A stretch of 64,000 bases of DNA, from positions 62,001 to 126,000 of the forward strand of contig NZ_SDQE01000009.1 in assembly GCF_004153455.1 (NCBI RefSeq), in the 5' to 3' direction. Each line of letters begins with the position of its first letter. Within the stretch, counting starts at the first letter, position 1. The DNA comes from Allopusillimonas ginsengisoli. Its GTDB lineage: Bacteria; Pseudomonadota; Gammaproteobacteria; Burkholderiales; Burkholderiaceae_B. The notes beneath the pieces were generated by a model, which was not told the DNA's origin, did no database searches, and saw only the letters and a program-made list of their open reading frames with translations. This document shows positions 628-57,247 of the stretch, piece after piece. Both the position numbers and the translations under genes were made by a program.

Positions 628-718
628 CAGGCCCTCATGCCATGGTTGACAGGCGTTGCCGAACAAAATATCGGCAGGCAAAGGCCGCAGCTTTCCGCAG
701 ACGCCGTCATCTGTCAAA

Positions 719-768
719 TAGGAGTCATCAGCCAGCATGGCGGTTATGTGGAGGAACCCCATCTCCGC
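719..768 (-). promoter_or_regulatory. Fluoride riboswitch (crcB motif RNA)
   Basis: Read on the minus strand from 768, the RNA has GGAGATGG, then TTCCTCC, then TAACCGCC, then GGCTGATGACTCCTA. These are the conserved blocks of the crcB motif, in the right order: the outer GGAG/CTCC stem, the pseudoknot partners, and the GGCTGATGAC joint. It lies about 90 bases before the crcB start at 627. No U-tract terminator is seen between it and crcB. Short inverted repeats in the spacer (TTTGACAG at 717-710 with CTGTCAA further down, and a GCCGA/TCGGC hairpin) suggest control of translation rather than termination, but that is inference. Confidence 0.93.
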
Positions 769-810
769 ATGTCAGTTTACTCTCGCACAGCGCTAAAAGC
801 TCTGGCCAAA

Positions 811-41946: not shown

Positions 41947-42014
41947 GGGAACCGTAACGGCACGGATTGGCTCACGCTGGGCGCACGAGCCTATCAGTGC
42001 CGCAACCTTGCCGT

Positions 42015-42269
42015 TCAGGCAGCGGCGTTGGCCGAGAATTGCTTGACCAGACGGGCAACGGCCGGCGACAGCTGGGCGCCGTTTTCGGTCCAGTATTGAA
42101 CACGATCAAGCGCAAGGCGCAGGTTTTCGGTGCCTTCGGTAGCGACAGGGTTGTAAAAGCCCACGCGCTCGATAAAGCGGCCATCGCGGCGGTTACGCGA
42201 ATCGGCTGCCACAACGTTGTAAAACGGACGCTTCTTCGAGCCGCCACGGGCCAGACGAATCACAACCAT
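42015..42269 (-). CDS. rpsP: 30S ribosomal protein bS16
   Basis: An 84-residue protein: [20 protein letters not shown] is the family start. It leads the rpsP-rimM-trmD operon, and a good promoter lies 35-64 bases upstream of its ATG. Confidence 0.97.
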
Positions 42270-42303
42270 GGTAATCCTTTGAAAATACGGTGAAAAACAA
42301 GAG

Positions 42304-42333
42304 ATTCTAGCATTGTTTTGCGAGGCATCGCAA
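42304..42333 (-). promoter_or_regulatory. Probable rpsP operon promoter
   Basis: TTGCGA (42333-42328) and TAGAAT (42309-42304) on the minus strand, 18 bases apart. Both boxes match sigma-70 consensus at 4-5 of 6 positions. Confidence 0.55.
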
Positions 42334-42413
42334 ACCCTTTACCCATATGTGACCAGCCAACAGGCAAAAAGCAACATACTCGCAACACACCCACGAATCA
42401 ATACGATAAAAAC

Positions 42414-42668
42414 CTAACGGCGTCGAAGAAAATGAAGAGCACTGTCGCCTTGATCCAACTGCGCCTCCAGGACGTTGCCGGTTTGGCGGGAAAACGCTTC
42501 AAAATCACGAACGGCATGTGGATCCGTGGTGATGACCTTGAGGATCTGGCCGCTGTGCAATTGGGCCAGCGCTTTTTTTGCCCTCAAGATAGGCAGCGGA
42601 CACTTCAATCCTGAAGCATCTACTTCCAGATCAAAATCGGGCATTGCATCAGAGGAAGAGATTGTCAT
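42414..42668 (-). CDS. TusA/SirA-family sulfur carrier
   Basis: An 84-residue TusA-like protein: LEVDASGLKCPLPILRAKKAL carries the sulfur-binding Cys23 and the CPxP motif. Such proteins pass persulfide sulfur to tRNA thiolation or other routes. It lies 11 bases after alaS on the same strand, so the two are probably co-transcribed. Confidence 0.9.
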   Translation of the reverse strand: MTISSSDAMPDFDLEVDASGLKCPLPILRAKKALAQLHSGQILKVITTDPHAVRDFEAFSRQTGNVLEAQLDQGDSALHFLRRR

Positions 42669-42679
42669 GACACTCGCTC

Positions 42680-45301
42680 TCAGGCCAGACGCTCGCGCAC
42701 CCAGGGCTCGACGCTGGCAGTGGCCCCAGGCAACGCCGCAGCGTCGGTGCCGCCACCCATGGCCATCTCTGGCCGGCCGCCGCCCTTGCCACCCACCTGC
42801 GCCGCTACCATGCCAACCAGATCGCCCGCCTTGACTTTACCGGCGAGATCGCCAGTGACCCCTGCGACCAGGCTGATCTTGTCATCGGCCACTGTTGCCA
42901 GCAGCACTACGGCAGATTTGAGCTTGTCCTTGAGCTGATCCACCATGCCCCGCAATGCTTTTGGATCCGCGCCGTTGACGTTGGCCACCAACAGCCGTGC
43001 ATCGCCTGGCAGGACAATCGCCTTTGCGGCAAGATCACTACCCGCCGAGGCGGCAAGCTTCGATTTGGCTTGTTCGAGTTCCCGCTCAAGCGTCTTAACC
43101 TGGTTTTGCATGAAGACGATGCGATCAGGCAGCTCGGCTGGCTGCGTGCGCAGCAGGCCTGCTACGCGCAGAAGCGTGTCGTTGGTTTGCTGAACCCATT
43201 TGACGGCGTTTTCACCCGTAATGGCCTCTATGCGCCGAACGCCCGCTGCCACCCCCCCTTCGGAAATAATCTTAAACAGGCCGATATCGCCTGTTCGAGC
43301 CACGTGCGTGCCACCGCAGAGTTCGCGCGAGAAACCGATATCCAGCACACGCACGGTATCGCCATATTTTTCGCCAAACAGTGCCATGGCGCCGCCCTGA
43401 ACGGCTTCGTCGTAGGGCATGACGCGTGCCGCCGTAGCACGGTTGGCCAGCACTTCATCGTTGACGATACGCTCGACCTCTGCAATTTGCTCTGCGCTCA
43501 TGGGCGCATCATGCGCGAAGTCGAAACGTGTTTTATCCGCATCAACCAGTGAGCCTCGCTGCTGCACATGCCCGCCCAGCACTTCGCGCAAGGCCTTGTG
43601 CATCAGATGCGTGGCGGAGTGATTACGCACGATGCGCGCACGCTGCGCCGCATCCACACGCGCATCGACGGTATCTCCCACCGACAGCGACCCTTCCAGC
43701 AAGCCGCCATGGTGACCGAATACGCCATTCTGTATTTTTTGCGTGTCATCGACCCGAAAACGCACGCCGCCGGATTCAAGTACGCCTGTATCACCCACCT
43801 GGCCGCCCGATTCAGCGTAGAACGGCGTGGCGTCAAGCACAACAATGGCGTTCTGACCCGCCTGGATTGTTCCAACGGATGTGCCCTCTACATACAGGGC
43901 GGTGACTTTGCCCAGCCCCTGCAAATGTTCATAACCATCGAAACGTGTTTCGGCGCCGGTATATACGAGGTTGCCCGCTGCCTTGAACTTGCCCGCCGCG
44001 CGCGCCTGCTGGCGTTGATGGTCCATGGCGGTTTCAAATCCGTCGTGATCGACCTGAACATTACGCTCCCGGCAGATGTCCGCAGTGAGATCCACAGGAA
44101 AACCATAAGTGTCGTACAGCGTGAACAGGGTTTGACCATCCAGCACGCCATTCTCGGGAACCGTCGCCAGGGCGGCATCGAGTATCTTGATGCCGTGCTC
44201 AAGCGTTTCACTGAAACGTTCTTCTTCTTGACGCAATACCTGTTCGACCCGCGCCTGCTGCCCATTCAATTCGGGGTAGGCGTCCCCCATCTGCAAGACC
44301 AGATCGGCCACAAGCCGATGAAAAAACAGCCCCGACTGGCCCAACTTGTGGCCATGGCGCAACGCGCGACGGATAATGCGGCGAAGCACATAGCCACGAC
44401 CCTCGTTGCTCGGAATAACCCCATCTACGATCAGAAAGCTGCAGGCGCGAATATGGTCGGCGATGACCTTGAGGGAATTATTGCTCAGGTCGGTGGTGGC
44501 CGTTTCGCGCGCGGCCGCCTTGATCAGCGCCTGAAACAGATCAATTTCGTAGTTGGAGTGCACATGCTGCAGAACAGCGGCAATCCGCTCCAGCCCCATG
44601 CCCGTATCCACGCACGGGCGGGGCAAAGGCGTCATGTTGCCTTGCGCGTCGCGCTCGAACTGCATGAACACAAGGTTCCAGATCTCGATAAAGCGGTCGC
44701 CGTCTTCTTCCGGAGATCCGGGGGGACCGCCCCAGATTTCGGGGCCATGGTCGTAAAAGACTTCGGAACAGGGACCACAAGGCCCTGTATCAGCCATCTG
44801 CCAGAAGTTGTCCGAGGCATAACGAGCCCCCTTGTTGTCGCCGATACGGATGATACGCTCACGCGGCACACCGATTTCGTTGGCCCAGATGTCGTAAGCC
44901 TCATCGTCTTCTTGATAAACAGTGACAGTGAGCTTGTCTGCCGGCAGCTTATAGACGGTGGTAAGCAGCTCCCACGCGTAATGGATCGCATCGCGCTTGA
45001 AATAATCGCCAAAGCTGAAATTACCCAGCATTTCGAAAAAAGTGTGGTGGCGGGCCGTATAGCCGACATTTTCAAGGTCGTTATGCTTGCCGCCTGCGCG
45101 CACACAGCGCTGCGAGCTGGTCGCGCGTTCATAAGACCGGGTTTCCTTGCCCGTGAATACGTCCTTGAACTGCACCATTCCTGCGTTGGTAAACAGCAAG
45201 GTGGGATCGTTGCCTGGCACCAGCGACGAAGATGGTACCTGCTGATGCCCCTTCGATTCGAAGAAAGACAGAAACTTCTGACGTATTTCGGAGGTTTTCA
45301 T
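42680..45301 (-). CDS. alaS: Alanyl-tRNA synthetase
   Basis: An 873-residue class II synthetase. The catalytic core is at the N-terminus ([10 protein letters not shown]-type start, [14 protein letters not shown], and [13 protein letters not shown]). The editing domain has the zinc site HSATHLMH and CGGTH, and the C-terminal C-Ala ends with [16 protein letters not shown] clear promoter (see 45335-45362) lies between it and the pilus operon. Confidence 0.98.
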
Positions 45302-45334
45302 TGGAGAAAAACGAACATTTAAAGGTAACCGTTA

Positions 45335-45362
45335 ATTATAGAGGGTGTTTACGCAGTCGCAA
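45335..45362 (-). promoter_or_regulatory. Probable alaS promoter
   Basis: TTGCGA (45362-45357) and a perfect TATAAT (45340-45335) on the minus strand, 16 bases apart, 34 bases before the alaS ATG and just after the pilV stop at 45371. Confidence 0.65.
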
Positions 45363-45370
45363 CAAACACC

Positions 45371-46396
45371 TCAATTCAGGCACAGATAGCGTCGGGTGAT
45401 GCCCAGGGAGAACAGTTGTGGCCCAGACTCCGCGACCTGAAAGGCATGTGACCAGGGCGGGCACGCACATCTGCCCGTATATTTGTTGGCTGTCGTGCCG
45501 GGCCCCGTGCAATTCGTAATGCTGTTGTGCACATAGCCACCCGCCACGCCTTGCACCGCAGGCTGCCATACCCCATCGACGCAGCCAAGCAATCCCGCAT
45601 GAGTTTGAAACGCAAGTGCCCCTTCCTTGTCGCATCGAACGCCCGCCACACTGCGCGCATGCAGACGGATATGCCCTTCAACCTGTATATCCGACCTCGC
45701 AAGCACATTATCCTGGACCGTCAATGGGCCCTGAAAGTCCGGATCACGGGTATCCCGCACGCGAAGGAAATCGCCTGCCGCGTCGTGCCTCACACTCAAT
45801 GCGACCGTACCTGGCAATAAGGCCGGCCCATGCCACGAAGGATTGCGCAGCGTAAATGCTGATCCCCGCAGCAGATTGGAATGCCTGGAGCTGACCCACC
45901 CGCCCAGGCCTTCAGCCGCCATCAGCCATTGCGCGACGCTCTGCTCATCCACACGTCCCGAACGCGCATCGACCAAGGGACGTTCGCTGTGAACAATCGC
46001 CTCTAGCCTGCAATCGGCTCCAGGGCACACGCCATCGCGCAGGACACGCACGACAGCAGCCCCCTGCCCTGTCTGCAATGGGAAAGACGCTGGCAAAAAG
46101 CCATAGGCCTTGAGCTCCGCCAGCGTGGGGGTTGACCAGTCTGCGAAACCCGCCGGGACAAGCGCTGTTGTCATCTCGGCGTGGCGAATGGCTTCGCCAT
46201 AGCGCTTCAGGTATTGCCTGGCGCCATCGCGTACCATCAGCATCCACTTTGCGTTGGCCTGTAGACCTGTATCCCTGACGGCAGTGGCCAGCGCGTGGGC
46301 ACCCCACACGGCCAACAAGGTGGCAATCAGCGCCGCGACGGTGAGCTCCAACAGAACGAACCCCTTCTGGGCAGGCATGATTCGAAACGCCATCAT
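45371..46396 (-). CDS. pilV: PilV-type minor pilin / thin-pilus tip adhesin
   Basis: A 341-residue prepilin-like protein of the PilV group that caps type IVb thin pili and binds recipient cells. The leader KG is followed by FVLLELTVAALIATLLAV (Phe+1, Glu+5), the prepilin peptidase pattern. The N-terminal shufflon-constant domain and the later CDKEGALAFQTHAGLLGC segment match the conserved parts of R64 PilV; the last ~60 residues (with several Cys) would be the receptor-binding tip. Its ATG at 46396 overlaps the pilS stop (ATGA). Unlike R64 there is no recombinase next to it and no visible inverted segments. Confidence 0.85.
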   Translation of the reverse strand: MMAFRIMPAQKGFVLLELTVAALIATLLAVWGAHALATAVRDTGLQANAKWMLMVRDGARQYLKRYGEAIRHAEMTTALVPAGFADWSTPTLAELKAYGFLPASFPLQTGQGAAVVRVLRDGVCPGADCRLEAIVHSERPLVDARSGRVDEQSVAQWLMAAEGLGGWVSSRHSNLLRGSAFTLRNPSWHGPALLPGTVALSVRHDAAGDFLRVRDTRDPDFQGPLTVQDNVLARSDIQVEGHIRLHARSVAGVRCDKEGALAFQTHAGLLGCVDGVWQPAVQGVAGGYVHNSITNCTGPGTTANKYTGRCACPPWSHAFQVAESGPQLFSLGITRRYLCLN

Positions 46397-46956
46397 CCAA
46401 TGCCGAATATAAAAGTGTTGCTATTGCCCCGGCCGCAATGCGCCCGGGCTGCCATTGCGTTGAAAGGGACCTGCTCTGCCTTGACCACCTTTGCTGCCCT
46501 TCCTTCCGCCTCAATGGATATGGTGTCAGCCACCCTTTGCATCACCGAGGCAATCGAAGGGCATGCAGCATCATTGACACGTGTGAGCGTAATGGCAAAT
46601 GCGCCACCGCCAACGCGTTCCGCTACCCGGACTTCGCCCTTATCGCCCAAGCCGTGCAATATGCGCATCCCTGCGCCGGTACCGAGTACTGAAAACACGC
46701 TGGAATCACGGACCGAGTGGGCGAACAGTGCTGTGTCAATGCCTCGATAAGGCGCGGGATCAACACCCATGGCGTTAACCTTGGCTTGAACGATAAAGCG
46801 TGCCAGCCCCTCCCCTACTTTGGGGACTTTGCTTTCGATCACGTAATGACCGATAGCGGGAATTCCAGTAATGGCGAGCAGCAGGATGACGGCCATTGCC
46901 ACGGAAATCTCCAGTAACGAAAAACCACGTTGAAACGCTTTGCCAATAGACTGCAT
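46393..46956 (-). CDS. pilS: PilS-type major pilin of a type IVb pilus
   Basis: A 187-residue prepilin. The short leader (MQSIGKAFQRG) is cut before FSLLEISVAMAVILLLA, giving Phe+1 and Glu+5. A pair of Cys near the C-terminus (in AACPS and RAHCGRG) can form the D-loop disulfide. ATG at 46956 with GGGAG 6 bases upstream is chosen. The mature length (about 176) fits type IVb pilins; the leader is shorter than in R64. It lies after pilR and overlaps pilV. Confidence 0.85.
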   Translation of the reverse strand: MQSIGKAFQRGFSLLEISVAMAVILLLAITGIPAIGHYVIESKVPKVGEGLARFIVQAKVNAMGVDPAPYRGIDTALFAHSVRDSSVFSVLGTGAGMRILHGLGDKGEVRVAERVGGGAFAITLTRVNDAACPSIASVMQRVADTISIEAEGRAAKVVKAEQVPFNAMAARAHCGRGNSNTFIFGIG

Positions 46957-46985
46957 GCAGACTCCCAATAAGTAATGTTCCAGCG

Positions 46986-48101
46986 CTATTGGCTGGCATA
47001 AAAAAGCATGAGCGCGTGCCGCATCTCATCGATGACGGCGTAGTGCCAAAGCCCCAACCCCAGGATGCAGATCAGGACCCCAAGCAACAAGAGCCAACGC
47101 AACGCCTGCGCCTGGCGTTCAGCCACATCCAGCGCCTGCCGCCTGAGCCGGTCGGTGCCCAGCGACAGCCCGGCATGCAAACCGCGAGCGCAGATCATGT
47201 CCGCCAGGAACCAATATTGGTCACGATCGAGCATCCCTGTATCGAAACTGCTCGCCCCTGTCTGGCCGGCATCGACTCGCGCACGGATGGCAGCAAGGCG
47301 AGAGGCGATCCACGGCGACGCACCGAAAGACAAGGAGCTGAGCGCCGAACGCAGACGAGTTGGGGCCACATCATCATCGCCAAGCAAGATGGCGAGCAGC
47401 GCCAGCAAGCGCAAGCCGTGCACATGCCGGTACAGACGCCAACAGCCGTGGCGATCAAGCCAGTTGCGAAGTCTTCCCGTCAGGCTGGGAAGAGACCACA
47501 GGCACCATGCCCATCCGGACATGGCCAGCGTCATCACGATCATCCAGTTGTTGTGCACCTGCCGGGCCAAAGCCAGCAGCCCCAGCGTCAACCTGCCATA
47601 GTCCTCCGGCGGCAAGACAGCAAAAGCCTGTACCAGTCGGGGCGCTGTCCACCACGGTACGGCCAGCAACGTGCACCACAGCAAAGCCATGGCCACAGCG
47701 GCTGACCAGAGCGCAGTGGAGAAAATACGACGCATCCGCCCCGTAAGCCTGCTCGCCTGCGATAGTGCTGCGAGCACCCGAACCAGCGCATTATTCCCCG
47801 CGGCCTGGGCGCTGCGTATCACCACGAGCTCATCGTCGGGAAAGCAGTGGCGCCAAGTCACGTACAGATCACCGCCACTAGCCTGGTAGACCTGCAGCCA
47901 ATGCGCGGACAACCGTCCTCTGCATGTTTTCTGGCTATAGCGAGCGGCATCCTGGGCGAAGATTTCTCTCAGCGTTCGACTGCCTTTCATCCCCGACAGC
48001 AAGGCGCTGAGATAATCGCAGTAATCTCCGCGCATACGGCGAAATCGACGGCAGTCAAGAATATGCTGAACACGACGGGCGTACGCAAGATAATTCATCA
48101 T
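46986..48101 (-). CDS. pilR: PilR-type inner-membrane pilus assembly protein (GspF/TcpE family)
   Basis: A 371-residue protein of the GspF/PilC group that forms the inner-membrane platform for pilus assembly. Several membrane helices are seen, about 130-152, 190-210, 225-240, and a last one (WLLLLGVLICILGLGL) near the C-terminus. ATG at 48101 overlaps the pilQ stop (ATGA) and has GAGGGG 6 bases upstream. The N-terminal half is basic (RRFRRMRGDYCDYLSALL). Confidence 0.83.
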   Translation of the reverse strand: MMNYLAYARRVQHILDCRRFRRMRGDYCDYLSALLSGMKGSRTLREIFAQDAARYSQKTCRGRLSAHWLQVYQASGGDLYVTWRHCFPDDELVVIRSAQAAGNNALVRVLAALSQASRLTGRMRRIFSTALWSAAVAMALLWCTLLAVPWWTAPRLVQAFAVLPPEDYGRLTLGLLALARQVHNNWMIVMTLAMSGWAWCLWSLPSLTGRLRNWLDRHGCWRLYRHVHGLRLLALLAILLGDDDVAPTRLRSALSSLSFGASPWIASRLAAIRARVDAGQTGASSFDTGMLDRDQYWFLADMICARGLHAGLSLGTDRLRRQALDVAERQAQALRWLLLLGVLICILGLGLWHYAVIDEMRHALMLFYASQ

Positions 48102-49852
48102 GAGTACCCCTCGTCGCATGGCCGGACCGCGGGTGGGGCCGCAACCCGCGGCATTGGCTGGCGCGGCTGCTGAACAATGCTACGTTGGTTCATCGCATCA
48201 ACGAGGCCACGTGTTTCAAACGCATGAAAGCGTAACTCGATGTCGCGTGGATCGACCAAGCCCAGGAAGGCCTTGGCAACGGCACAATCCATGGCTGTCT
48301 GAACTGCGTGCGGGGATAGCGCCGGCTCGATGATCTCGGCGACGAGTACCCGCCCTGCATAGCCGTAGAGATCGGGAATTCCGCTCTGGCGGCATTCAGG
48401 ACAACCTTCCGTGTTCCGGATGCGCAAGGCATCAAGCCCGCCCCCATACAGGCGCTGAACGAGAGTCAGCCATGTACGCCACTGCGCAGCGCTGCGCCAC
48501 GCGCCTCCGGGATGACGGCCACCCTTGTCCTGCAGGATGCTGGCAGGTTGAGCGCAGTGCCCGCACAGGGCAGGCAGCAAGGCTTGGTAAACCAGTAGCT
48601 TGAGCACCCCGTGCATGGCAAGAAAATCAGAAGGTACGCCGATGAAATCAGACGCAAGGCGTGCGGGAATCAATGCCGCAGAAGGAGCATGAACAGTGGT
48701 GTAAACATTGACACCGGATGCGGCCAGATCAACGAAGGCCCGCCCAGTTTCCCGGTCTCTTATTTCGCCCAGCAACACGTCGCTCATGGCGGATCTTTTC
48801 AGGGCCCTGAGTTTGCTGCCATAAGCAGTGTGGGCCGTTTCATCCAGATTGCGCAGGATGGAGCTTTGTATGGCGCCAGGAATTGAATATTCAACGGGAT
48901 CTTCCAGCGTAAGTACCTTGCGGTGCGGCGCCAGTGTACATATCAGGGCGGCAAGCGAGGTTGACTTGCCTGAACCCACAGTGCCGGCGAATATGACAGC
49001 ACCACCCTGCGATAGCAGCACCCGCTGAATTTGATCCAATTGATCGGGCAGGTAACCCAACCCGGCAAGCCCGGCCCGCAGCCGCGTGGTATCTCGTGGC
49101 AACACCCTCAGGCAGACACTGGGACCGGCATCTGCTGCCACGGATGCCCAGCGCAATACATGGCGTTTGCCGTCCAGGCTGACTTCAAGATTGCCTTGCT
49201 GTTCGCGGAACGGGTCGAATACAGCGCCGTTGCCGCCACGAACGTCCATCCATGCGACAGCCAGCATATCCATGAGGGTACGGGTGGGCATATGGAGGAA
49301 TCTGTGTGGCGCCACATAGCGTCCCGATACCGTGTATTTAATTTCGGATTCGTCTTCTGTCAGGCGCACATTGAGATGGATGTCGCTTGCGTGATGTCGC
49401 ACAGCCCAGGCGACCAAATCATGAAAGGCCGCAACCAGCGCGGTTCTCGTTTGCTCCGGACGTTGCGTCAACGCGGAACCGGCAACGATCTGCTGGTGCT
49501 CGTGGCGGCTGATCGCCAACAGCAGTGGGGCTGGTACCACATAGCGGGCCGGCGTAGCCGCTGCATACCCCGCCTGCACAATGCGCTGAGCGAGTTCGTC
49601 GGCCTGGTCGCTGCCCACATGTTCTGCCAGGGCAAAGATGGCGACGCAGGTATCTTCCATCAGTACCGGCACCATGCGTCCGGTAAGCGCGACAACATTC
49701 AGTTCACTCGCCAGGGAGCGCACAACCGCGTTCGGCAGGAGCGCAAGCTCTTGCGTGCTGCTTACCACCCGGGCCTGCGCGGTATCGAAACGTGCCGCGG
49801 AACGCGATTGCCTGGTACGCCCCGGGCCGCGTGCGAGTATCCTGAAGATCAT
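48098..49852 (-). CDS. pilQ: PilQ-type pilus assembly ATPase (type II/IV secretion family)
   Basis: A 584-residue ATPase that drives thin-pilus extension. The P-loop is AGTVGSGKSTS near 288-297; LLGEIRDRETGRAF (about 355-367) holds the Walker B/arginine region. Four Cys (CGHC near 431 and CPEC near 483) are the zinc site typical of GspE. Segment ASDIHLNVR at the start of the core is also typical. Start ATG 49852 overlaps the pilP stop (ATGA); the in-frame extension upstream lies inside pilP. Confidence 0.88.
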   Translation of the reverse strand: MIFRILARGPGRTRQSRSAARFDTAQARVVSSTQELALLPNAVVRSLASELNVVALTGRMVPVLMEDTCVAIFALAEHVGSDQADELAQRIVQAGYAAATPARYVVPAPLLLAISRHEHQQIVAGSALTQRPEQTRTALVAAFHDLVAWAVRHHASDIHLNVRLTEDESEIKYTVSGRYVAPHRFLHMPTRTLMDMLAVAWMDVRGGNGAVFDPFREQQGNLEVSLDGKRHVLRWASVAADAGPSVCLRVLPRDTTRLRAGLAGLGYLPDQLDQIQRVLLSQGGAVIFAGTVGSGKSTSLAALICTLAPHRKVLTLEDPVEYSIPGAIQSSILRNLDETAHTAYGSKLRALKRSAMSDVLLGEIRDRETGRAFVDLAASGVNVYTTVHAPSAALIPARLASDFIGVPSDFLAMHGVLKLLVYQALLPALCGHCAQPASILQDKGGRHPGGAWRSAAQWRTWLTLVQRLYGGGLDALRIRNTEGCPECRQSGIPDLYGYAGRVLVAEIIEPALSPHAVQTAMDCAVAKAFLGLVDPRDIELRFHAFETRGLVDAMNQRSIVQQPRQPMPRVAAPPAVRPCDEGYS

Positions 49853-50334
49853 CGAGGCTCCCGAAAATCCGGATGCAGGCACAAAGTGTGCGGTGTTTCG
49901 GCGTTCATCAACCGAACGCACGACTTGCTGATGCCTTCCAGAACATAGGCCACCTCTGGATTGCGGCGACCCATGGCCTGGGGCTGGCCTTGCATGTACA
50001 GGTAGTGGTTGCCGTCTATGTCAACCTGTGCCACCAGACGATGACCTGTTCCGTAGATCGCCACCAACCTTGGGCCTGACGTCTGCGTGGATACGACGCG
50101 GGCCACCTCGCTGTGGCTCGCACCCTGTATTGTGGCGAATCCTGTGGTGGAGGCGGCGCCAGCCTGAATTGCTTCCCGCCGCATGAGTTCGCGCACCGAC
50201 AATTGATCTTCAATGATTTGCTCATGCAAGGCCTCGGTCGCTGCGGCAAGCACTGACACGGGTATCAGGCAAAGCAGAAAAGCCATGCACCGCTGCACCC
50301 ACTTAGCGGCTTTCAATCGCGTGTTTTGATTCAT
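49849..50334 (-). CDS. pilP: PilP-type periplasmic pilus protein
   Basis: A 161-residue protein with a signal peptide (AFLLCLIPVSVLA about 18-30) and a small periplasmic domain. PilP of R64 is a pilus accessory protein needed for thin-pilus formation. Start ATG at 50334 has GGAG 7 bases upstream and overlaps the end of pilO by 32 bases. The sequence is less conserved than in its neighbours; the call leans on position, size and the signal peptide. Confidence 0.75.
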   Translation of the reverse strand: MNQNTRLKAAKWVQRCMAFLLCLIPVSVLAAATEALHEQIIEDQLSVRELMRREAIQAGAASTTGFATIQGASHSEVARVVSTQTSGPRLVAIYGTGHRLVAQVDIDGNHYLYMQGQPQAMGRRNPEVAYVLEGISKSCVRLMNAETPHTLCLHPDFREPR

Positions 50335-51652
50335 AAAGCTCTCCTTCGAGCGTGAGAAGAAAACGGCTCCGTTTCGTATCGGGCGCATCTATTGCCTGCA
50401 CACGAAGCATGGCGGTGGACCACCCCATGAAGGCCGCGTGATCCACCAGCAGGCTGGCGGATCGCAATGGCCCTTCTATCCTTATCGCGCGTTGCCGAAA
50501 CTGCGATGCAAGGTCACCCGCGGCTTGTGCCGGAGAGGAATGCGTGGACACCGAGGCCACCGGCATCGGTTGCCCGACCTGTAAGTGCGTGAATAGGGCC
50601 TGCAGTCCTTGCAGAGCGCTCAGCAGATGGCGATCGTTATGCACCGGCGACATCGGCCTGGCGTGCTGCAGCAGTATGCCGGGCGCATCGGTTTGCCAAT
50701 CGGCCGTGGCTTCGTCCAGAGACACAAACGAGATGCGCCATGCTGACGGCGCATGTTGCAACAAGGCTTCGTTAGTTGCCTCGGCGCGTTCTCGCCGATA
50801 CCGCGCGACACAATGCCAGCTCAACGCATGTGCCTGGCACTGAGACCATGTCAGGGCCCATCCACCGGGATTGGTCGGCAATGCGTGGAAGATGCCCAGC
50901 AGGGACTGTAGGCCGGTGATGCCGTGCACCACTGGGGATGCCGTGGGCAGCATGGCGTCTGAGGAAGGTGTCAGCCATGATGTGGCCGGTTCTTTGTGGC
51001 TGAGCGGATCCATCTGATAACTGCCCGCATTGAGTCTGGCGGCGCAGAACACCAGGATAAACATGAGCCCAAGGCCAAGTTGTGTGCTGATACTCATCTG
51101 GCGCCAGTTGGACAAATAGAGCAACTGACTGTGCGCCCCCGTGTGCTGCGTGAGCGCATCCAGGCCAGGGACGGCCGGTACGGCGCCCTCCCCCGGTGTG
51201 ACCAGATGCGGATATGCCAGCTTGAGTTCGGCCATTGCAGCCAGGGCAGCTGCGGCATCGACGTACAACCTGTCTGTGCGAGCGACCACGACACCTTCGT
51301 GCACGGCGATCAGCCATAACAAGCCAGGCGAAACCTCGATGAGTGCGGCAACTGTCCCTGTCGGAAATTGGCGGGCGAACAGCATGGCCGCCGAATGCAA
51401 GATGCTGTCTGATGGTGCAGGCGCGGGCTTGGCATTGCGGGACACGCGCGTATGGTTTCTGCCCCGATGTTGCGGCAGCGTGACCACGCCGACCGCGCCG
51501 GCGGCATGCCCGATTGCAATCATATGAGTAGCCCGATGGCGGCGCGCCAGACGCCTGGCTGCGCGCGCCCCGCCCTCATCCAGCAGTGCAAACCATTCCA
51601 GGCCTAAGACAAGGCTGACTTTGCCTACCTGTAGAACAAGCGCTTCTGTCAT
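50303..51652 (-). CDS. pilO: PilO-type pilus accessory protein
   Basis: A 449-residue protein with one membrane helix (about 190-207, TQLGLGLMFILVFCAARL) between a cytoplasmic N-terminal domain (actin-like fold in the PilO/PilM class, with VSLVLGLEWFALL at the start) and a periplasmic C-terminal domain. R64 PilO (about 430 residues) has the same layout. It follows pilN by seven bases. Confidence 0.8.
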   Translation of the reverse strand: MTEALVLQVGKVSLVLGLEWFALLDEGGARAARRLARRHRATHMIAIGHAAGAVGVVTLPQHRGRNHTRVSRNAKPAPAPSDSILHSAAMLFARQFPTGTVAALIEVSPGLLWLIAVHEGVVVARTDRLYVDAAAALAAMAELKLAYPHLVTPGEGAVPAVPGLDALTQHTGAHSQLLYLSNWRQMSISTQLGLGLMFILVFCAARLNAGSYQMDPLSHKEPATSWLTPSSDAMLPTASPVVHGITGLQSLLGIFHALPTNPGGWALTWSQCQAHALSWHCVARYRRERAEATNEALLQHAPSAWRISFVSLDEATADWQTDAPGILLQHARPMSPVHNDRHLLSALQGLQALFTHLQVGQPMPVASVSTHSSPAQAAGDLASQFRQRAIRIEGPLRSASLLVDHAAFMGWSTAMLRVQAIDAPDTKRSRFLLTLEGELYESKHAIESR

Positions 51653-51659
51653 ACTGACC

Positions 51660-53333
51660 TCAGAACCCTTCTTCGACCTGAGCCGTCACGATGATGACTG
51701 TAGTCAGCTGTTGACTGGACACCTTGTCGCTTCCGCCCAGGGCAAGCGGCATGCCGGGATTCAGCCGACGATTAGTGGTTTCGTGGCGCATATGATCGAA
51801 GCCTGAAATCAGGACCGGCTGCCCAGGCTGCAGCGCAAGCTGCTGCACGATGCCATTGCCGTCTATCGTTATTTGCTGTAGCTGCAAGGGGTTGCCTTTA
51901 TCGCCGAAGGTAACCGAGCGCAACGGCTGGGCAACGGTATTGTCATACGCAACCGAGAGCAGTATTAAGCCGTTTTCCTGCGCATCAGGGATGAGCGTGA
52001 GCAGGGACCCGACGGTTTGCTCTCGCTGCCCCACCGACACACTGGGCATCGCCATGGGAGTAGCCGGTGGGAGCGACACGGTTTCGACTTTATCGATGTA
52101 GGAGAACGTGGTGCGCACTGCGTGCGTAACTGGCCGGCGGTTGAGCGTGAGAACAGGAACCCTGCTGTGCCGCACAACCTGCCCGATCTCGCCCAATGCC
52201 TTGATAATGGCTTCTGAGCCAGAGAATCGGCCAAACGTCGCGCTTGCGCCAAGACTTGAAGCGCCAGCTGCCAGGCCTGAGGAAGAACCTGCCATCACGG
52301 CACTTCTGGCGCTGTTGAAGATGAGTTCCCAGTTAAGACCGGCTTCGGCATTATCGTGCGCCTGGACGACAAGCTCTTCGAACACGAGGCGTACGCGGCG
52401 CGTCAGTGCACGGTTTTCTTGCTCCAGATACACGGCAATCCGGTTCAGGACTTCGGGCGTATCGGTGACAACAATGCTGGCACTGGTATCCGGCGCGATG
52501 GACATCACGCCTGCCCTGGATAGAAACGCCTCGATCCGCGCACGCAGCGAAGCCATGACATTGCTTTCGCCGCTGTCCAGTTGTGTGCGAGACGTGCCAA
52601 CAAACCCCTCGACCTGATCGCCGCCCTGCTGTCCGAGCGAAGCCTGAACATTGGCGTTGAGCGTGAGTGCGCGAACGTTGAACACACGCGTTTCCGTCCG
52701 GTAAAACTCGATGCGGCCATGCTCATAGCGCCACAACACGCCAAGACGAGCGCATAGCCTGTCCAGCAACCTGGGCAAGGGCTCCGGGTCGCCATCAAGA
52801 TCGGCATGCCGAGGAGCCGCCACGACACCTTCCGCATCGCCGGTAGCAGACAGCCTGGGCAGAAAGGCTTCGAGTGGCAGCAAGGCATCTGGCCTGACGT
52901 GGACGGGAATAGCAGTGATGGCGGTAATACGGCGCGCAATGGCAGGCAGATCCAGGGGCCCATCCCCGAACAGCAAGGTAGTGTGAACGTCAGCCCGCAA
53001 CACTGCCGGCAGGGTCACGTCGCGTGAGAGCGCCTGTGCGCGTCCGACCAGCCATGGACGGGCAACTTCCTGTGCCGCCCGCCGGGCGGCTGGATCAGCC
53101 GCCGCGTCTTCGAAAGCCTTGTGTCCGGCCTGGACGCTGGACTGCGAGGCACGAAACAGCGAGGATGCAAGCCTTGAGCGATCAGCCAACGCGCAAGCGC
53201 CAAGGTTGCCAGACAGTAGGACGACGATGAACATCCTGAGAATGGGCGAACCACTGCGCCAGGTTCCGGAAGCAGAAAGTGTCATAGAAGGGACTGCGCC
53301 ATGCATGAGGGTGAACAGATAGGAAGCCGCCAT
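51660..53333 (-). CDS. pilN: PilN-type outer-membrane secretin lipoprotein
   Basis: A 557-residue secretin that forms the pilus channel. The lipobox is LGAC (Cys47 from the start used here). A periplasmic domain near 85-200 (VHVRPDALLPLEAFL) is followed by the C-terminal secretin domain, with GDKGNPLQLQQITIDG and GFDHMRHET near its end. Start ATG at 53333 overlaps the pilL stop as TGATG, suggesting coupling; a start at 53285 or 53234 would give a shorter signal peptide with no better ribosome site. Confidence 0.85.
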   Translation of the reverse strand: MAASYLFTLMHGAVPSMTLSASGTWRSGSPILRMFIVVLLSGNLGACALADRSRLASSLFRASQSSVQAGHKAFEDAAADPAARRAAQEVARPWLVGRAQALSRDVTLPAVLRADVHTTLLFGDGPLDLPAIARRITAITAIPVHVRPDALLPLEAFLPRLSATGDAEGVVAAPRHADLDGDPEPLPRLLDRLCARLGVLWRYEHGRIEFYRTETRVFNVRALTLNANVQASLGQQGGDQVEGFVGTSRTQLDSGESNVMASLRARIEAFLSRAGVMSIAPDTSASIVVTDTPEVLNRIAVYLEQENRALTRRVRLVFEELVVQAHDNAEAGLNWELIFNSARSAVMAGSSSGLAAGASSLGASATFGRFSGSEAIIKALGEIGQVVRHSRVPVLTLNRRPVTHAVRTTFSYIDKVETVSLPPATPMAMPSVSVGQREQTVGSLLTLIPDAQENGLILLSVAYDNTVAQPLRSVTFGDKGNPLQLQQITIDGNGIVQQLALQPGQPVLISGFDHMRHETTNRRLNPGMPLALGGSDKVSSQQLTTVIIVTAQVEEGF

Positions 53334-54250
53334 CACGACGCCCTGACTGGACTGGCATTGCGATCGCACGCTTGGGCATAGGGAACGATGCGCAATACCT
53401 TGTTTGAATAGAAGCAGGGTTGCAGCGGACGATCTGCCAGCTCTGTGGCGGCGACCAATTCCTGGACTGCAGTTTTGAAATCTGGTTCGAACACCGCGGA
53501 AGCTGTAAGCGGGATATCAACATCGACGGCCCAATGCTCGGGGGCGAATACCCATCCGGCCAGTTGCGCCCAACGGGCGAGTGCGAGCCGCATATTGGTA
53601 TCGGAGGGATTGACCGAATAAGTCGGCGTTGCTTCTGCATTCAGTGCCGGAAAGCTGGCTGCCGTCAGCGCCGTGGCGAGGCCATGGGCCGGTGCTGGGG
53701 GATGTGCCAGCGTTGACGCGGCTGACCCGGTTGGCGGGGCCGCGTGGGCGGAAGCTGCTGCCCGGACAGAGGGCGTTGCCGATGACGGGGCGATCGCCTG
53801 CGGCGCATCTGGTTCGGGCAAGGCCCCGCCTGCTGCTGCAGGCACGACGGCGTCTGAAACGCCTTGCGCTGCGACGGGAACGCCCCCCTTGCGCCTGATA
53901 TGGCTTTGCAGATGGCCGCCACGCAGAACGAGTTCAGGCCATACGCCGGGGAGCACAAGATAAGCGCCTTCGCGGCGGTAATGCACCGGTCTGTCGCCGG
54001 CCGATGTACGTTCGAAAATGGCAGGAATCGCCTGGCCATGGTTGAACTGCAGCCACGTGCGCCGGCCGTCGTCGAATACCTGCAGCGGCGCTACAGCTCT
54101 GCTGCCGGACAACTGCCAATCGAAACTGAACGTGGCTGCGGGCGAGACGGAGGGCAAGAACGGCAGCGGCCGCAAAGCGGACATGCCGGGCGACAAGGCG
54201 CAGGCAGGCAACAAGGAAACAAGCAACAAGACAAACAACAAGCGAGGCAT
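53333..54250 (-). CDS. pilL: PilL-type lipoprotein: VirB9-like part plus TcpQ domain
   Basis: A 305-residue lipoprotein (lipobox LPAC, Cys17). Residues ~40-100 resemble the VirB9/TrbG N-terminal fold (FDWQLSGSRAVAPLQVFDDG...). A Pro/Ala-rich linker (about 125-200) leads to a TcpQ-like domain near 215-295 (NMRLALARWAQLAGWVFAPEHWAVDV), as in R64 and ICE PilL. Start ATG at 54250 fits the lipoprotein signal; its ribosome site is weak. It is the first gene of the pilus operon, so a promoter should lie between 54251 and 54485. Confidence 0.8.
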   Translation of the reverse strand: MPRLLFVLLLVSLLPACALSPGMSALRPLPFLPSVSPAATFSFDWQLSGSRAVAPLQVFDDGRRTWLQFNHGQAIPAIFERTSAGDRPVHYRREGAYLVLPGVWPELVLRGGHLQSHIRRKGGVPVAAQGVSDAVVPAAAGGALPEPDAPQAIAPSSATPSVRAAASAHAAPPTGSAASTLAHPPAPAHGLATALTAASFPALNAEATPTYSVNPSDTNMRLALARWAQLAGWVFAPEHWAVDVDIPLTASAVFEPDFKTAVQELVAATELADRPLQPCFYSNKVLRIVPYAQACDRNASPVRAS

Positions 54251-54485
54251 GATACGTATCCAGAAAGACAAACGCGTCGTCGATCAACGTGGACCGTTAT
54301 CCTGCCTGCACCCAACTCCTCGTGCCAGACTGGCTTATACGAACGGAGCTTTTTATCTCTGCGCTTCAGCAGCCGCGGAGGGCCCGGACCCCACAGATGC
54401 GCCCGGCACAGCAGATAGGTGAGCACAGGGGTGATAGACCGCCGGCTCACCGCTCCATGGTGAGCACACGCGCATCGGGATCATG
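54251..54485. other. Pilus operon leader region
   Basis: No gene is supported here. A small inverted repeat GCTCAC/GTGAGC lies near 54446-54466. A pilus-operon promoter is expected but no clear -35/-10 pair is seen on the minus strand. Confidence 0.35.
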
Positions 54486-54524
54486 CAAAAAAACGCTTCG
54501 CAGGCGGCCGCCCAAGAAGCGTTT
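54486..54524 (-). terminator. Rho-independent terminator after the UgpB-like gene
   Basis: Stem AAACGCTT (54491-54498) / AAGCGTTT (54517-54524), followed on the minus strand by a run of seven T. It separates the dadA/ugpB-like unit from the pilus operon. Confidence 0.85.
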
Positions 54525-54594
54525 GTCTTTCTGAGGCGGCGCGCCCGGATTGAATCGGTCGCGCATTGCCTCAGGCAATCAAGTATTGATCCTG

Positions 54595-55923
54595 CTATTT
54601 TGCGCCAATCAATTGGCTGGCTTGCGCCGCTGCGGTCTTGAGCGCCGTGACAGCCGGCTCCTTACCGTTTAGCGCGTTATCGAGCGTATCGCGAAACATG
54701 GCGCGAATACGAGGGTAGTTGTCGATGCGAAAGCCGCGACTGCTGTCGCTGGGCGACTTTTCGTAGGCAGCGACCAGGTTTTTCCAGTCTCCCAGGTTCT
54801 TGTAGTAACTGTTATCTGTTTGCTGGAAAGCCTGCTGCGTCAGTGGAAGATAACCTGTCTCCTGGTACCAGCGCGCTGCCTGCTCGGGCTGTGCCAGCCA
54901 GGCCAGAAAGGCTGCACTGGCCGCATCGCTGTCCTTGGCGTGGCCCGAGGTGGCCCACAGCGCAGAGCCGCCCACAAACGGGTTGCCCGGATTGCTGGTG
55001 ACCTGCGGGTAATACGGCAAGCCAGTGACAGCAAAATCAAGTACGCGGGTGCTCCGGAACCAGCCCAGATTGCTGGACGTGGACATCAATACAGCGCATT
55101 CGTTATTGGCAAACCGCTTGGTGGCGACCTGATCGAACTCCGGCTTGACCATGAGTTCGCTACGCACCCAGCTAATCATCATGGAAAGGTGGCGTATGTA
55201 CATGACATCGAAACTGAAGGCAGGCTTGCCCTTGCCTTTCAGGCCGTTGCTATTGCTGACAAAAAGCTGGTTATTGACGGCGGCCAGGTTCTCCAGATTA
55301 ATGGAAACCGGCTGATCGGAGGTCAGCGGGCATTTGCGCGAGCCGTTGTTGGCCAGCGTAACCAACTGGGCCTGCAATTCGTTCCAGGCGCGCGAGGGCG
55401 CCGTGGACTGCAGGCCCGCCTTTTTGAACGAAGACAGGTTGTAGAACATGACGGGCACATCCACCATGTAAGGGAAGGCAACCAATCGCCCGCTGTTGTC
55501 GCGCGCGAAGGTGTTTTTCTCTGACAGGAACCACTTGGCGTTCTTGATGGGATGCTTGGCCAGCAACGAATACATCGGCAAGATGTCTTTGCGCTTGGCC
55601 ATTTCGTCAGGCGTACGGTCGTCGTCCAGTTGCACCAGTTGCGGACGATCGGAAGCCTTCTTGATACCGGCCAGAGCAGACTCTATGGCGGTTTCGCTGT
55701 CATAGGATTTGAGGCGGACGTCGACGTCTTTCTGGCTGCGATTGAAATCCTTGACCAGCTTTTCGAATACCCCTTGGTTATGGCCGCTGAGCGTATGCCA
55801 AACCTGGATGTCGGTGGCGGCCGATACGACGCCAGATGAACAGAGGAGCACACCCGCCCCCAACCATGCGAGCCTGCGACCAGCGCCAGGCGCACCGCAC
55901 AACCGATGTTGCTTCATAGACAT
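54595..55923 (-). CDS. UgpB-like periplasmic solute-binding protein
   Basis: A 442-residue ABC-transport binding protein of family 1, closest in layout to UgpB (sn-glycerol-3-phosphate): DIQVWHTLSGHNQGVFEKLV at the mature start and WARYQETGYLPLTQQAF-type segment near the end. Signal peptide 1-35 with cut VSA-A. AGGTTGAC lies directly before the ATG at 55923, one base after the dadA stop, so it is probably coupled to dadA. No ABC permease or ATPase genes lie near, so the substrate is uncertain. Confidence 0.85.
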   Translation of the reverse strand: MSMKQHRLCGAPGAGRRLAWLGAGVLLCSSGVVSAATDIQVWHTLSGHNQGVFEKLVKDFNRSQKDVDVRLKSYDSETAIESALAGIKKASDRPQLVQLDDDRTPDEMAKRKDILPMYSLLAKHPIKNAKWFLSEKNTFARDNSGRLVAFPYMVDVPVMFYNLSSFKKAGLQSTAPSRAWNELQAQLVTLANNGSRKCPLTSDQPVSINLENLAAVNNQLFVSNSNGLKGKGKPAFSFDVMYIRHLSMMISWVRSELMVKPEFDQVATKRFANNECAVLMSTSSNLGWFRSTRVLDFAVTGLPYYPQVTSNPGNPFVGGSALWATSGHAKDSDAASAAFLAWLAQPEQAARWYQETGYLPLTQQAFQQTDNSYYKNLGDWKNLVAAYEKSPSDSSRGFRIDNYPRIRAMFRDTLDNALNGKEPAVTALKTAAAQASQLIGAK

Positions 55924-55924
55924 G

Positions 55925-57178
55925 TCAACCTAAAAAAGGAAATTCGGGTTCGGGCAGGCGACCGGAAATGAGATCGGCCAAAGCGCGGCCAGAACCCGCG
56001 CCCATAGTCCAACCCAAGGCACCATGCCCGGTGTTCAGGTAAAGGTTACGGATTTTAGTCCTACCAATGAGCGGTACACTGGAAGGTGTAGAAGGACGTA
56101 GGCCCGACCAGAATCGTACATTAGCAAAATCAAGGCCGGTTGGGAACAAATCCCGAGCCTGGCGCAACATATTATCGCAACGGATTGTATTCAGGTTGCG
56201 GGAATACCCCGCCAGTTCAGCGGTGCCGGCCATTCGAATATGGTTGCCCAGGCGGGTGTACACGACCTTATTGCGGCTGTCGGTAAGGCTGACGGTCGGT
56301 GCGGCGGAATTGTCAACAATATCAAACGTAGCCGAATAGCCCTTGGTGGGGTATACCCGGCAGGCAATGCCAAGTGGCCTGAGAAAGTGTGGCGTATAAG
56401 CGCCCAGGGCTGCCACATAGGCGTCGCCCGTCACACGCTGATACAAGCCATCCGCGTCAATGACCTCTGCCCCTGTTACGGCACCGCCTTGCGACAGCAG
56501 CCGGCTGAGCCGGGTGTTGTAACGGAATTCGACGCCCGCCTGCGCAGCTCGGGCGGCCAGCTCGAGAGTGAACAAGTGAGCGTCGCCTGTTTCGTCTCCC
56601 GCCGTGAAGTCACCCCCGACAATGCGGCTGCGGGCAGGCGCCAGCGCGGGTTCCAGCGCAACGATTTCATCCGGCGAGACGATCCGGCGATCAATGCCGA
56701 AATCCCGCAATATGCCTGTCATATCCTGAGACGATTCGAATTCTTCTTGATCGCGATAGAAGCTGAGGATGCCGGATTCGGAATGCTGGTACTCGATACC
56801 CAGTTCCCGCCGCATGGCCTGCAAAGTGGCGCGGCTGTATTCAGACAGGCGCAGCATGGAGCGGGTGTTGGCCAGGGTGCGGCCTGGCAGGCACTCTCTC
56901 AGAAACAATAGACTCCATATCCATTGCTGAGGATCCAGGCGCGGCCTGAACAATAGGGGTGCATCTTCGCGGGTTAGCCAGCGCAGCAGGCGTAGCGGCG
57001 CATGCGGATTGGCCCAGGGCTGCGAGTAGGACACGCAGATCTGTCCACCATTGGCCCGGCTGGTCCCCTGGGCGGGACCACTGGCGCGATCGATAACAAC
57101 GACATCATGACCAGCCTGATTAAGCCACCATGCGGTGCATACGCCTATGATTCCGCTGCCCAGTACCACTACTTTCAT
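55925..57178 (-). CDS. dadA: D-amino acid dehydrogenase, small subunit-type FAD enzyme
   Basis: A 417-residue FAD-dependent oxidoreductase of the DadA group, which oxidises D-amino acids to keto acids at the inner membrane. The dinucleotide-binding motif is GSGIIGVCTAWWL (7-19), and the C-terminal NTGHGALGWTMGAGSGRALADLI completes the FAD site. Length is normal. It lies between the ferredoxin-NAD reductase (69 bases upstream) and the UgpB-like gene (1 base downstream). Confidence 0.92.
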   Translation of the reverse strand: MKVVVLGSGIIGVCTAWWLNQAGHDVVVIDRASGPAQGTSRANGGQICVSYSQPWANPHAPLRLLRWLTREDAPLLFRPRLDPQQWIWSLLFLRECLPGRTLANTRSMLRLSEYSRATLQAMRRELGIEYQHSESGILSFYRDQEEFESSQDMTGILRDFGIDRRIVSPDEIVALEPALAPARSRIVGGDFTAGDETGDAHLFTLELAARAAQAGVEFRYNTRLSRLLSQGGAVTGAEVIDADGLYQRVTGDAYVAALGAYTPHFLRPLGIACRVYPTKGYSATFDIVDNSAAPTVSLTDSRNKVVYTRLGNHIRMAGTAELAGYSRNLNTIRCDNMLRQARDLFPTGLDFANVRFWSGLRPSTPSSVPLIGRTKIRNLYLNTGHGALGWTMGAGSGRALADLISGRLPEPEFPFLG

Positions 57179-57247
57179 GGTCTACCCCTTTTGTCGCTGA
57201 TTGGTCGCTTCGCGCGCGGGCCTGTCGAACGGCCACTGCCTGCCCTA

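Follow-up and report, generated by a model that had tools for sequence, protein, structure and literature searches.

An R64-class type IVb pilus operon on the chromosome of Allopusillimonas ginsengisoli and the VirB9-type domain of its PilL protein

Introduction

Type IVb pili of the R64/PAPI-1 class are best known from plasmids and genomic islands. The closest described system to the locus studied here is the thin pilus of plasmid R64 (IncI1), which is encoded by pilI-V; a linked PilU peptidase, PilT transglycosylase and PilM are present in R64 and are not universal. Assembly of such fibers follows the general type IVb scheme of the R64, TCP and PAPI-1 pili. The parts of the TCP pilus are summarized in PMC7616799. 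Modules shared by the core complex of type IV secretion systems (T4SS) and by secretin systems have also been described, e.g. an N0 domain in VirB7 of Xanthomonas citri (PMC3093366) and a VirB9 N-domain in the secretin RcpA (PMC10499894).

Here, we analyzed a stretch of 64,000 nucleotides from Allopusillimonas ginsengisoli (GCF_004153455.1, contig NZ_SDQE01000009.1, positions 62,001 to 126,000; hereafter the window), which lies on contig C33 of a 4.5-Mb genome and carries an eight-gene pil operon at 45371-54250 on the minus strand. Profile matches and conservation among relatives confirm this locus as a type IVb pilus operon of the R64/PAPI-1 class in which all eight reading frames are open. 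Taken by itself, the operon belongs to a known kind of system, found here in a setting that is underappreciated. What is new is the architecture of PilL, in which a VirB9-type domain is joined to TcpQ, and the survival of the N-terminal half of this protein as a separate gene in relatives that have no such pilus; neither feature was part of the original prediction made for this locus from its sequence.

Results

Gene content of the operon

The genes are listed from pilL to pilV.

53333-54250, minus strand: pilL, with an LLPAC lipoprotein-like signal, CagX at residues 39-119, a poorly conserved linker and TcpQ at residues 210-289
51660-53333, minus strand: pilN, outer-membrane secretin (TIGR02520, hhalign to R64 PilN, conservation)
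50303-51652, minus strand: pilO, inner-membrane alignment protein of the PilO2 type (hhalign to R64 PilO)
49849-50334, minus strand: pilP-like gene for a small protein with a signal-peptide-like start (TIGR03021 below cut-off; position)
48098-49852, minus strand: pilQ, assembly ATPase (PF00437, hhalign, motifs)
46986-48101, minus strand: pilR, inner-membrane platform protein (T2SSF just below cut-off, hhalign)
46393-46956, minus strand: pilS, major prepilin with leader QRG/FSLLE and two conserved Cys (PF08805 and N_methyl over cut-off)
45371-46396, minus strand: pilV, minor tip pilin with leader QKG/FVLLE and a conserved Cys (hhalign to R64 PilV)

All eight open reading frames (ORFs) are open at these coordinates, and the R64 gene order, with TGATG at the pilL/N joint and ATGA overlaps at P/Q, Q/R and S/V, is as had been predicted. 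Because several of these families have no good profiles, each window protein was aligned with its relatives and the alignments were compared by hhalign with eleven R64 Pil proteins. The R64 namesake was the best match for seven of the eight proteins (PilL, N, O, Q, R, S and V), and none of the eight matched R64 PilM, PilT or PilU (best value, 7.5%).

PilN matched R64 PilN at 99.9% over 424 columns and TIGR02520 at 198.9 bits (E 1.2e-58; below the cut-off of 287.65), and the Cys of its LGAC lipobox is near-invariant among relatives. PilQ was over cut-off for PF00437 (E 9.6e-43) and matched R64 PilQ at 99.9%; its Walker A motif (GTVGSGKS at 290), GEIRD motif and two CxxC pairs (at 430 and 484) are near-invariant among relatives. 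For PilR, values of 24.8 bits with T2SSF (cut-off 25.2) and 98.9% over 333 columns with R64 PilR were obtained. PilS was over cut-off for PF08805 and for PF07963 (N_methyl, the prepilin leader), with G15, E20, C136 and C178 near-invariant (numbered on the longer, TTG-start ORF). PilV and PilL matched their namesakes at 98.5% over 121 columns and 66% over 67 columns, respectively, PilP reached 22.1 bits with TIGR03021 (cut-off 34.65), and neither PilO nor PilV matched a Pfam family at E 0.01. Given these profile matches and the conservation in relatives, chance gene order is not at issue. The profile checks proposed with the original prediction were borne out for TcpQ and PilS (over cut-off) and for the PilN secretin (by hhalign), and its naming of pilQ and pilV holds by hhalign; no shufflon-N profile hit PilV. 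A hypervariable PilV tip is not supported, the conservation of the C-terminal part being somewhat lower than that of the rest of the protein and overlapping it.

A VirB9-type domain fused to TcpQ in PilL

In window PilL, residues 39-119 match CagX (PF03524) with 58.8 bits against a cut-off of 34.2, beginning at position 114 of the 198 CagX positions, and residues 210-289 match TcpQ (PF10671) with 68.8 bits, also over cut-off. The same pairing was seen in an alignment of 61 rows (the window and 60 of 64 family loci; L068, L070, L083 and L104 were left out), where TcpQ was found in all rows and CagX in 57 at E <= 0.01. An AlphaFold2 model of PilL gave a pLDDT of 93-97 per ten-residue block over residues 41-120, with the rest poorer and a mean of 66 overall. 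When this model was searched with Foldseek, 12 PDB chains were matched at E <0.001, all of them T4SS core-complex entries by title, and the next match was Xanthomonas VirB7 with its N0 domain (0.015). The N-half of PilL lacks the VirB9 N-terminal domain, and tblastn queries with VirB8 and VirB10 (VirB7 being too short for such a search) gave no homologue in the window. Further VirB9-like matches lie elsewhere in the genome.

Eighteen PilL-type proteins from outside alaS-type loci were also scanned (L134 and L144 were left out). Fourteen have TcpQ only: nine plasmid proteins, R64 included, both Achromobacter second copies, and L132, L133 and L135, which belong to other families. The other four, which come from three other families, have both domains, with CagX over cut-off in L136 (53.1 bits) and below it in L142 (30.6), L143 (24.4) and L141 (20.9). 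A fusion restricted to the Alcaligenaceae is rejected by these four proteins; its origin probably predates the family. Among the plasmids, PilL was matched by 416 records, none over 80% of its length. At L142 (G462), genes for VirB4, VirB6, VirB8, VirB9 and VirB10 lie directly upstream of the fused PilL gene, and a transglycosylase gene and pil genes lie downstream; this arrangement makes a T4SS neighbor gene a plausible source of the VirB9-type domain. Separately, the fused PilL of L136 (G297) was seen to have two TcpQ stretches, and several genomes of the order have two CagX matches ∼2 kb apart.

Distribution and chromosomal place

PilN was found in all five genomes of the genus, the present one included, and in 195 of 250 Alcaligenaceae genomes at E <= 0.001. 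In 170 of the latter the match was below 1e-50; the 25 weak ones may be other secretins. PilN was also found in 67 of 399 genomes of the order, with no match outside the family better than 3e-37 (31% identity). Genomes of genus g2 (G076, G098, G117, G135, G151, G166, G179 and G190) have a full-length PilL (E 1e-74 to 1e-82) together with only weak PilN matches, a pattern that a diverged or replaced secretin would give.

The comparison of loci covered 64 non-duplicate chromosomal copies, i.e. 56 from places in the family and 15 found by protein search, minus six duplicates and L112, which is without both flanks. Within the stretches compared, ugpB was a neighbor in 55 loci, alaS in 44, both in 41, either in 58 and neither in 6. 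Where alaS and pilV were both seen, their matches were 47-778 bp apart, with one exception of 3,106 bp. Most operon genes are open in most of the 64 loci; L070 has only pilL and pilN, L088 has a short pilO and a short pilS, and L068, L104 and L107 are cut by contig ends. The identity of PilN to the window copy tracks that of alaS, ugpB, dadA and ascD (r 0.74-0.78, n 47-61, with duplicates), which is what vertical descent would give. Taken with the shared location, this points to an old, family-wide locus that was likely inherited vertically, for which no att sites would be expected. Recent insertion at att sites was rejected, since the location is common to the family and no flanking repeats were found. 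The interval comparison suggested with the original prediction agreed with it in finding no att-type repeats and departed from it in finding an old family-wide locus in place of a lone insertion; a core locus with adjoining tra genes had been named there as the contrary outcome, and the core locus was found while tra genes of the searched set were not.

Plasmid relatives

A tblastn search with PilN matched 2,796 records in the plasmid collection, all at <60% identity. The best were Achromobacter plasmids (44-45%), followed by Variovorax and Polaromonas. On pA82-type plasmids the pil operon comes after DotD/TraH, DotC-like (our label) and TraJ-like genes, and on Polaromonas pPNAP01 it lies among VirB-type genes. 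In PilN, PilQ and concatenated trees the chromosomal copies of the family form one group, and the Achromobacter plasmid copies and second copies branch at its base or just within it; Variovorax, Polaromonas and Burkholderia copies fall outside this clade, as do the R64 copies in the PilN and PilQ trees. With plasmid copies as the nearest outgroups, an old conjugative ancestor followed by vertical inheritance is likely, i.e. the operon likely entered from a conjugative element long ago. Domestication, which the original prediction had put forward, is plausible because the nearest outgroups in the PilN and PilQ trees are plasmid copies and PilL carries a T4SS domain. Two genomes (G048 and G007) have second, diverged pil operons (L130 and L131) with PilN 39-41% identical to that of the window, beside a closer copy in the same genomes.

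The lone VirB9-like half in relatives without the pilus

A search with the PilL alignment matched 223 of 250 family genomes at 1e-10, and 33 genomes were examined in which the match looked partial or PilN was lacking. In 31 of these only the N-half was matched; the contig of one (G155) ends 42 bases past the match, so that this may be a full gene cut short, which leaves 30. The other two have a full-length PilL (G049) or two pieces (G153). Among the 28 N-half loci listed, alaS lay within the 1.5-kb flank in 20, two of which differ in being ∼0.8 kb from alaS (L177) or divergent from it (L179). Four of the other eight, G155 included, have ugpB or ascD nearby and four have neither. At L139 (G017, genus g14) the lone gene is located elsewhere, in the vicinity of genes read by eye as rho-, trxA- and parE-like, which indicates that it can persist away from alaS.

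Twenty-one lone ORFs have a lipoprotein-like signal at the start and stop shortly beyond the CagX domain, which was detected in all three that were scanned (one over and two below cut-off). Pairwise dN/dS values were 0.08-0.15 in g40 (6 pairs), 0.06-0.14 in g22 (8 of 15 pairs), 0.16-0.28 in g23 (3 of 6 pairs), 0.25 in g15 (1 pair) and 0.29-0.71 in g4 (10 pairs); dS was saturated in 7 of 15 g22 and 3 of 6 g23 pairs and is above 2 in several of those with a finite value, and L167 and L186 were dropped for want of an ORF. A functionless remnant is thus disfavored in g40 and g22, whereas the weakly constrained copies of g4 may be decaying. A part in a T4SS is disfavored as well: at 1e-15, 32 of the 33 genomes gave a single match to the PilL alignment, a threshold that weaker VirB9 genes would escape, and some genomes gave a second match at 1e-10. 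The lone half as a helper of the present pilus is rejected, there being no PilN match in those genomes.

A rooted tree was built from 81 AlaS rows after removal of seven duplicates and one split AlaS. Its pilus clade comprises 45 rows with the fused form, 9 with the lone gene and 1 without either; in the sister clade, the lone gene is present in 15 rows and both forms are missing from 2. Eight fused/lone changes are needed. Two of the 45 rows counted as fused (G076 and G049) have a full PilL with a weak PilN match or none. The tree thus implies several losses of the pilus in which the N-half was retained, and one or more losses of both, and it leaves the deep state ambiguous. Its root is uncertain, since an outgroup row groups with two rows of the family and the two clades are joined at a node with weak SH support (92/44).

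A secretin is present in each of the 22 lone-gene genomes tested, and the 11 from g22 and g23 have exactly one, in open frames of 467-523 aa, about the size of Tad secretins. This single Tad-sized secretin is the only hint to a partner of the lone lipoprotein, which probably has a pilus-independent role. We give an even chance to a broader proposal, that the PilL N-half is an independent outer-membrane lipoprotein with the VirB9 C-terminal fold, kept by selection near alaS with or without the pilus and serving a partner other than the pilus or a T4SS, e.g. a Tad secretin.

Transfer genes, shufflon, peptidases and motors

Nineteen T4SS, transfer and R64 Pil proteins were used as tblastn queries against 65 targets (the window and the 64 related loci). 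No target matched VirB4, VirB6, VirB8, VirB10, DotD, DotC-like, TraE, TraF, TraH or TraI (relaxase and coupling protein were not searched for), and none matched Rci, PilI, PilM or PilU. A PilT transglycosylase homologue was found in one target, near the pil operon of L082 (G053; 17243-17542). The TraJ and VirB9 queries matched many targets; what they hit within the window is pilQ and pilL themselves. A shufflon was not found, there being no inverted-repeat array at the 3′ end of pilV and no Rci homologue in the 65 targets, and no integrase was noticed when the ORFs of 42000-58000 were read by eye. The absence of visible transfer features, as first described, thus holds for the searched set.

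The whole genome has two PF01478 hits. The first lies ∼6 kb from a TadA-like ATPase match. The second is a 233-aa protein near a moaC-like gene; its A24 domain was confirmed, and it is the best candidate for a peptidase acting on PilS. As a side observation, this unlinked prepilin peptidase has beside it three lipoprotein-like ORFs that resemble one another and contain DPNNP- or GDP-type repeats (L039, contig C11; 10615-12399, 13265-14389 and 15252-17087), with MarR-like ORFs between them (names by eye). None of the eight TIGR01420 matches in the genome is a PilB/PilT-type ATPase over cut-off. Three of the eight were placed: the best lies in a cluster read as a type II secretion system and one lies on C33 in a tad-like cluster, both clusters being named from translations and not by hidden Markov models, and one is PilQ.

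Flanking genes and transcription signals

The operon lies between alaS on one side and a ugpB-like gene and an oxidoreductase gene on the other, as first described. The former of the latter pair matched NCBIfam PRK10974 at 207 bits (cut-off 411), and the oxidoreductase is read as DadA-like from its translation. Two further features were noted in the flanks.

45335-45362, minus strand: promoter-like site TTGCGA-16-TATAAT in the pilV-alaS gap (consensus scan)
54485-54535 (approximate, by eye), minus strand: terminator-like hairpin followed by TTTTTTT, 3′ of the ugpB-like gene, between that gene and pilL

The pilV stop is 69 bp from alaS, and in this gap the consensus scan found one promoter-like site against 0.1 expected, which alone is no proof of function; an own promoter for alaS is therefore probable. 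The hairpin was missed by a simple terminator scan of 54200-54650 and was seen by eye. Together, the site before alaS and the hairpin with seven T that ends the ugpB-like gene suggest that the operon is probably its own transcription unit. No direct-repeat pair of >=16 nt brackets the operon, the GC content of which (0.57-0.62) lies within the range across the window (0.52-0.62). An 18-nt inverted repeat (94%; 54261-54278 and 54516-54533) spans the region upstream of pilL, with one arm running into the hairpin. Far from the operon, close to the window start, there is a fluoride riboswitch aptamer (RF01734, 54.6 bits; 712-775, minus strand).

Discussion

We consider it quite probable that the operon encodes the assembly machine, minus the prepilin peptidase, of a domesticated chromosomal type IVb pilus of the R64/PAPI-1 class, acquired long ago from a conjugative element, inherited vertically since, and most likely used for attachment to cells or surfaces and for aggregation, not for DNA transfer. 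What the sequence itself shows is the gene set with its order, the intact catalytic and leader motifs, the conserved location and the fusion of a VirB9 C-terminal domain to TcpQ; the working steps that follow are inferred. PilS would be cleaved by an unlinked leader peptidase, for which the 233-aa PF01478 protein is the candidate, and polymerized by PilQ and PilR, with PilO and PilP as a periplasmic link. The fiber would leave through the PilN secretin, which lipidated PilL would anchor and brace, holding PilN through its TcpQ domain. As in other cases of modules common to T4SS and secretin systems (PMC3093366, PMC10499894 and PMC13170226), the VirB9-type β-sandwich of PilL may add an outer-membrane ring like that of the T4SS core complex. 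PilV would cap the fiber as an adhesin of fixed specificity.

Without a shufflon or transfer genes of the searched set, a contact or attachment pilus is most likely, and since no PilT-type motor was found, any retraction must use PilQ or pilin incorporation. PilV of the IncI2 plasmid TP114 is reported to be the adhesin that selects recipient cells (PMC9045228), a PilV2 fusion of PAPI-1 was used in lipopolysaccharide-binding tests (PMC5297154), and adhesion and twitching have been linked to a type IVB pilin in Burkholderia (PMC9558350).

Several observations weigh against this interpretation. PilP is unconfirmed: it did not match R64 PilP by hhalign (0.1%), and as a tblastn query it had no match in 13 of the 64 loci (including L070 and the short L104). 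The matches of PilO and PilS to their namesakes reach only 77% (over 380 columns) and 54.5%, and a structure model of PilV had no significant match in the PDB (best 9iuf, probability 0.44), so that the term adhesin rests on homology and position. No peptidase or transglycosylase is linked to the window operon. PilN is absent from at least 55 of the 250 family genomes, which implies that the pilus is dispensable. The Achromobacter plasmid copies are nested among chromosomal ones in the PilN and PilQ trees (modest support) versus outside them in the concatenated tree (SH 80); either the chromosome or the pA82-type plasmids may have been the donor. Contact between PilL and PilN is proposed from TcpQ homology only.

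Among the alternatives, the one that fares best, unlikely as we hold it to be, is that the fusion was made on the spot: the family ancestor had only a lone gene for a VirB9-fold lipoprotein beside alaS, a pil operon was inserted downstream, its TcpQ gene became fused, and the lipoprotein would be what the locus conserves, with the pilus as an addition. The rooted AlaS tree would suit this history, in that g14, g40, g22 and g23, in which 15 of 17 rows have the lone gene while lacking the pilus, are sister (93/96) to the pilus clade (94/90), as would the low dN/dS of 0.06-0.15 for the lone genes of g40 and g22. However, one early loss fits the same tree equally well, its root is not firm, and CagX-TcpQ proteins occur outside the family (L136, L141, L142 and L143, with virB8-9-10 just upstream in L142), from which the fused form is probably older.

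Somewhat less probable is that the pilus aids conjugation in trans, stabilizing mating pairs for plasmids or integrative and conjugative elements that bring a T4SS of their own; the pili of R64, TP114 and PAPI-1 do this in cis. It is for this mating-pair role that the class is best known (PMC9045228 and PMC5297154), homologues of 44-45% identity lie beside DotD/TraH, DotC-like and TraJ-like genes on Achromobacter plasmids, and the genome has the other VirB9-like matches noted above. Nevertheless, the operon is kept in most of the family genomes searched without adjoining transfer genes of the searched set, and a role for other replicons alone hardly explains such retention.

We regard as improbable a DNA-uptake (competence) pilus, perhaps the sole type IV pilus besides Tad in the genome: none of the PilB/PilT-type ATPase matches reached the cut-off, which leaves a type IVa competence pilus without evidence, but the same search leaves the proposed pilus without a PilT-type retraction ATPase, and the R64/PAPI-1 class is not known for DNA uptake. 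A recently acquired or still mobile island, as homologous operons on large plasmids might suggest, can be dismissed with near certainty, being refuted by neighbors common across the family and a location shared in distant genera, with GC within the window range, no flanking repeats, no Rci homologue and no integrase noticed by eye in 42000-58000.

With an anciently acquired, vertically inherited attachment pilus thus preferred, a class best known from mobile elements would be represented here by an ancestral chromosomal organelle of a bacterial family, one that is apparently little recognized. For one Alcaligenaceae genome, which may or may not carry the locus, authors seeking other pili reported only Tad genes and scattered type IVa genes (PMC6461280). 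In mostly non-subscription literature, no paper recognizable as describing this locus was found, nor one that joins TcpQ with VirB9, nor one on the lone VirB9-like lipoprotein. This lipoprotein, a small protein of the envelope, occurs in pilus-less relatives and shows conservation in at least two genera. PilL itself, a T4SS core-complex domain joined to a type IV pilus secretin partner, offers a testable link between the two machines.

Compared with the R64 thin pilus, the window operon has the same order from pilL to pilV and R64 supplies the best profile match for seven of its eight proteins; it differs in being chromosomal, in having no tra genes of the searched set and no tblastn homologues of PilI, PilM, PilT, PilU or the shufflon recombinase, and in the VirB9-type domain, which R64 PilL is without. 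The MPF_I plasmids of Achromobacter (pA82 and relatives) have the nearest plasmid copies (PilN 44-45%), with the same gene order and a PilL with TcpQ; unlike the window operon, these are on plasmids beside DotD/TraH and TraJ-like genes, and their PilL is without a CagX match in L113, L114 and L124. In another family of the order, L142 of G462 has the same CagX-TcpQ PilL (CagX 30.6 bits, below the 34.2 cut-off), followed by pilN, pilQ and pilR (tblastn), pilS (Pfam) and ORFs in the places of pilO, pilP and pilV, but it lies directly downstream of VirB4, 6, 8, 9 and 10 genes, has a transglycosylase gene, and its PilN is 23% identical. With the VirB9 C-terminal domain of T4SS core complexes (TrwF, TraO, X. 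citri VirB9 and CagX), the N-half of window PilL shares the Pfam CagX match and the fold matches, whereas it has its own lipobox-like signal and a TcpQ domain, no VirB9 N-terminal domain, and no VirB8 or VirB10 homologue in the window. Finally, where X. citri VirB7 joins VirB7 to N0 and RcpA joins a VirB9 N-terminal domain to a secretin, window PilL joins the VirB9 C-terminal domain to TcpQ.

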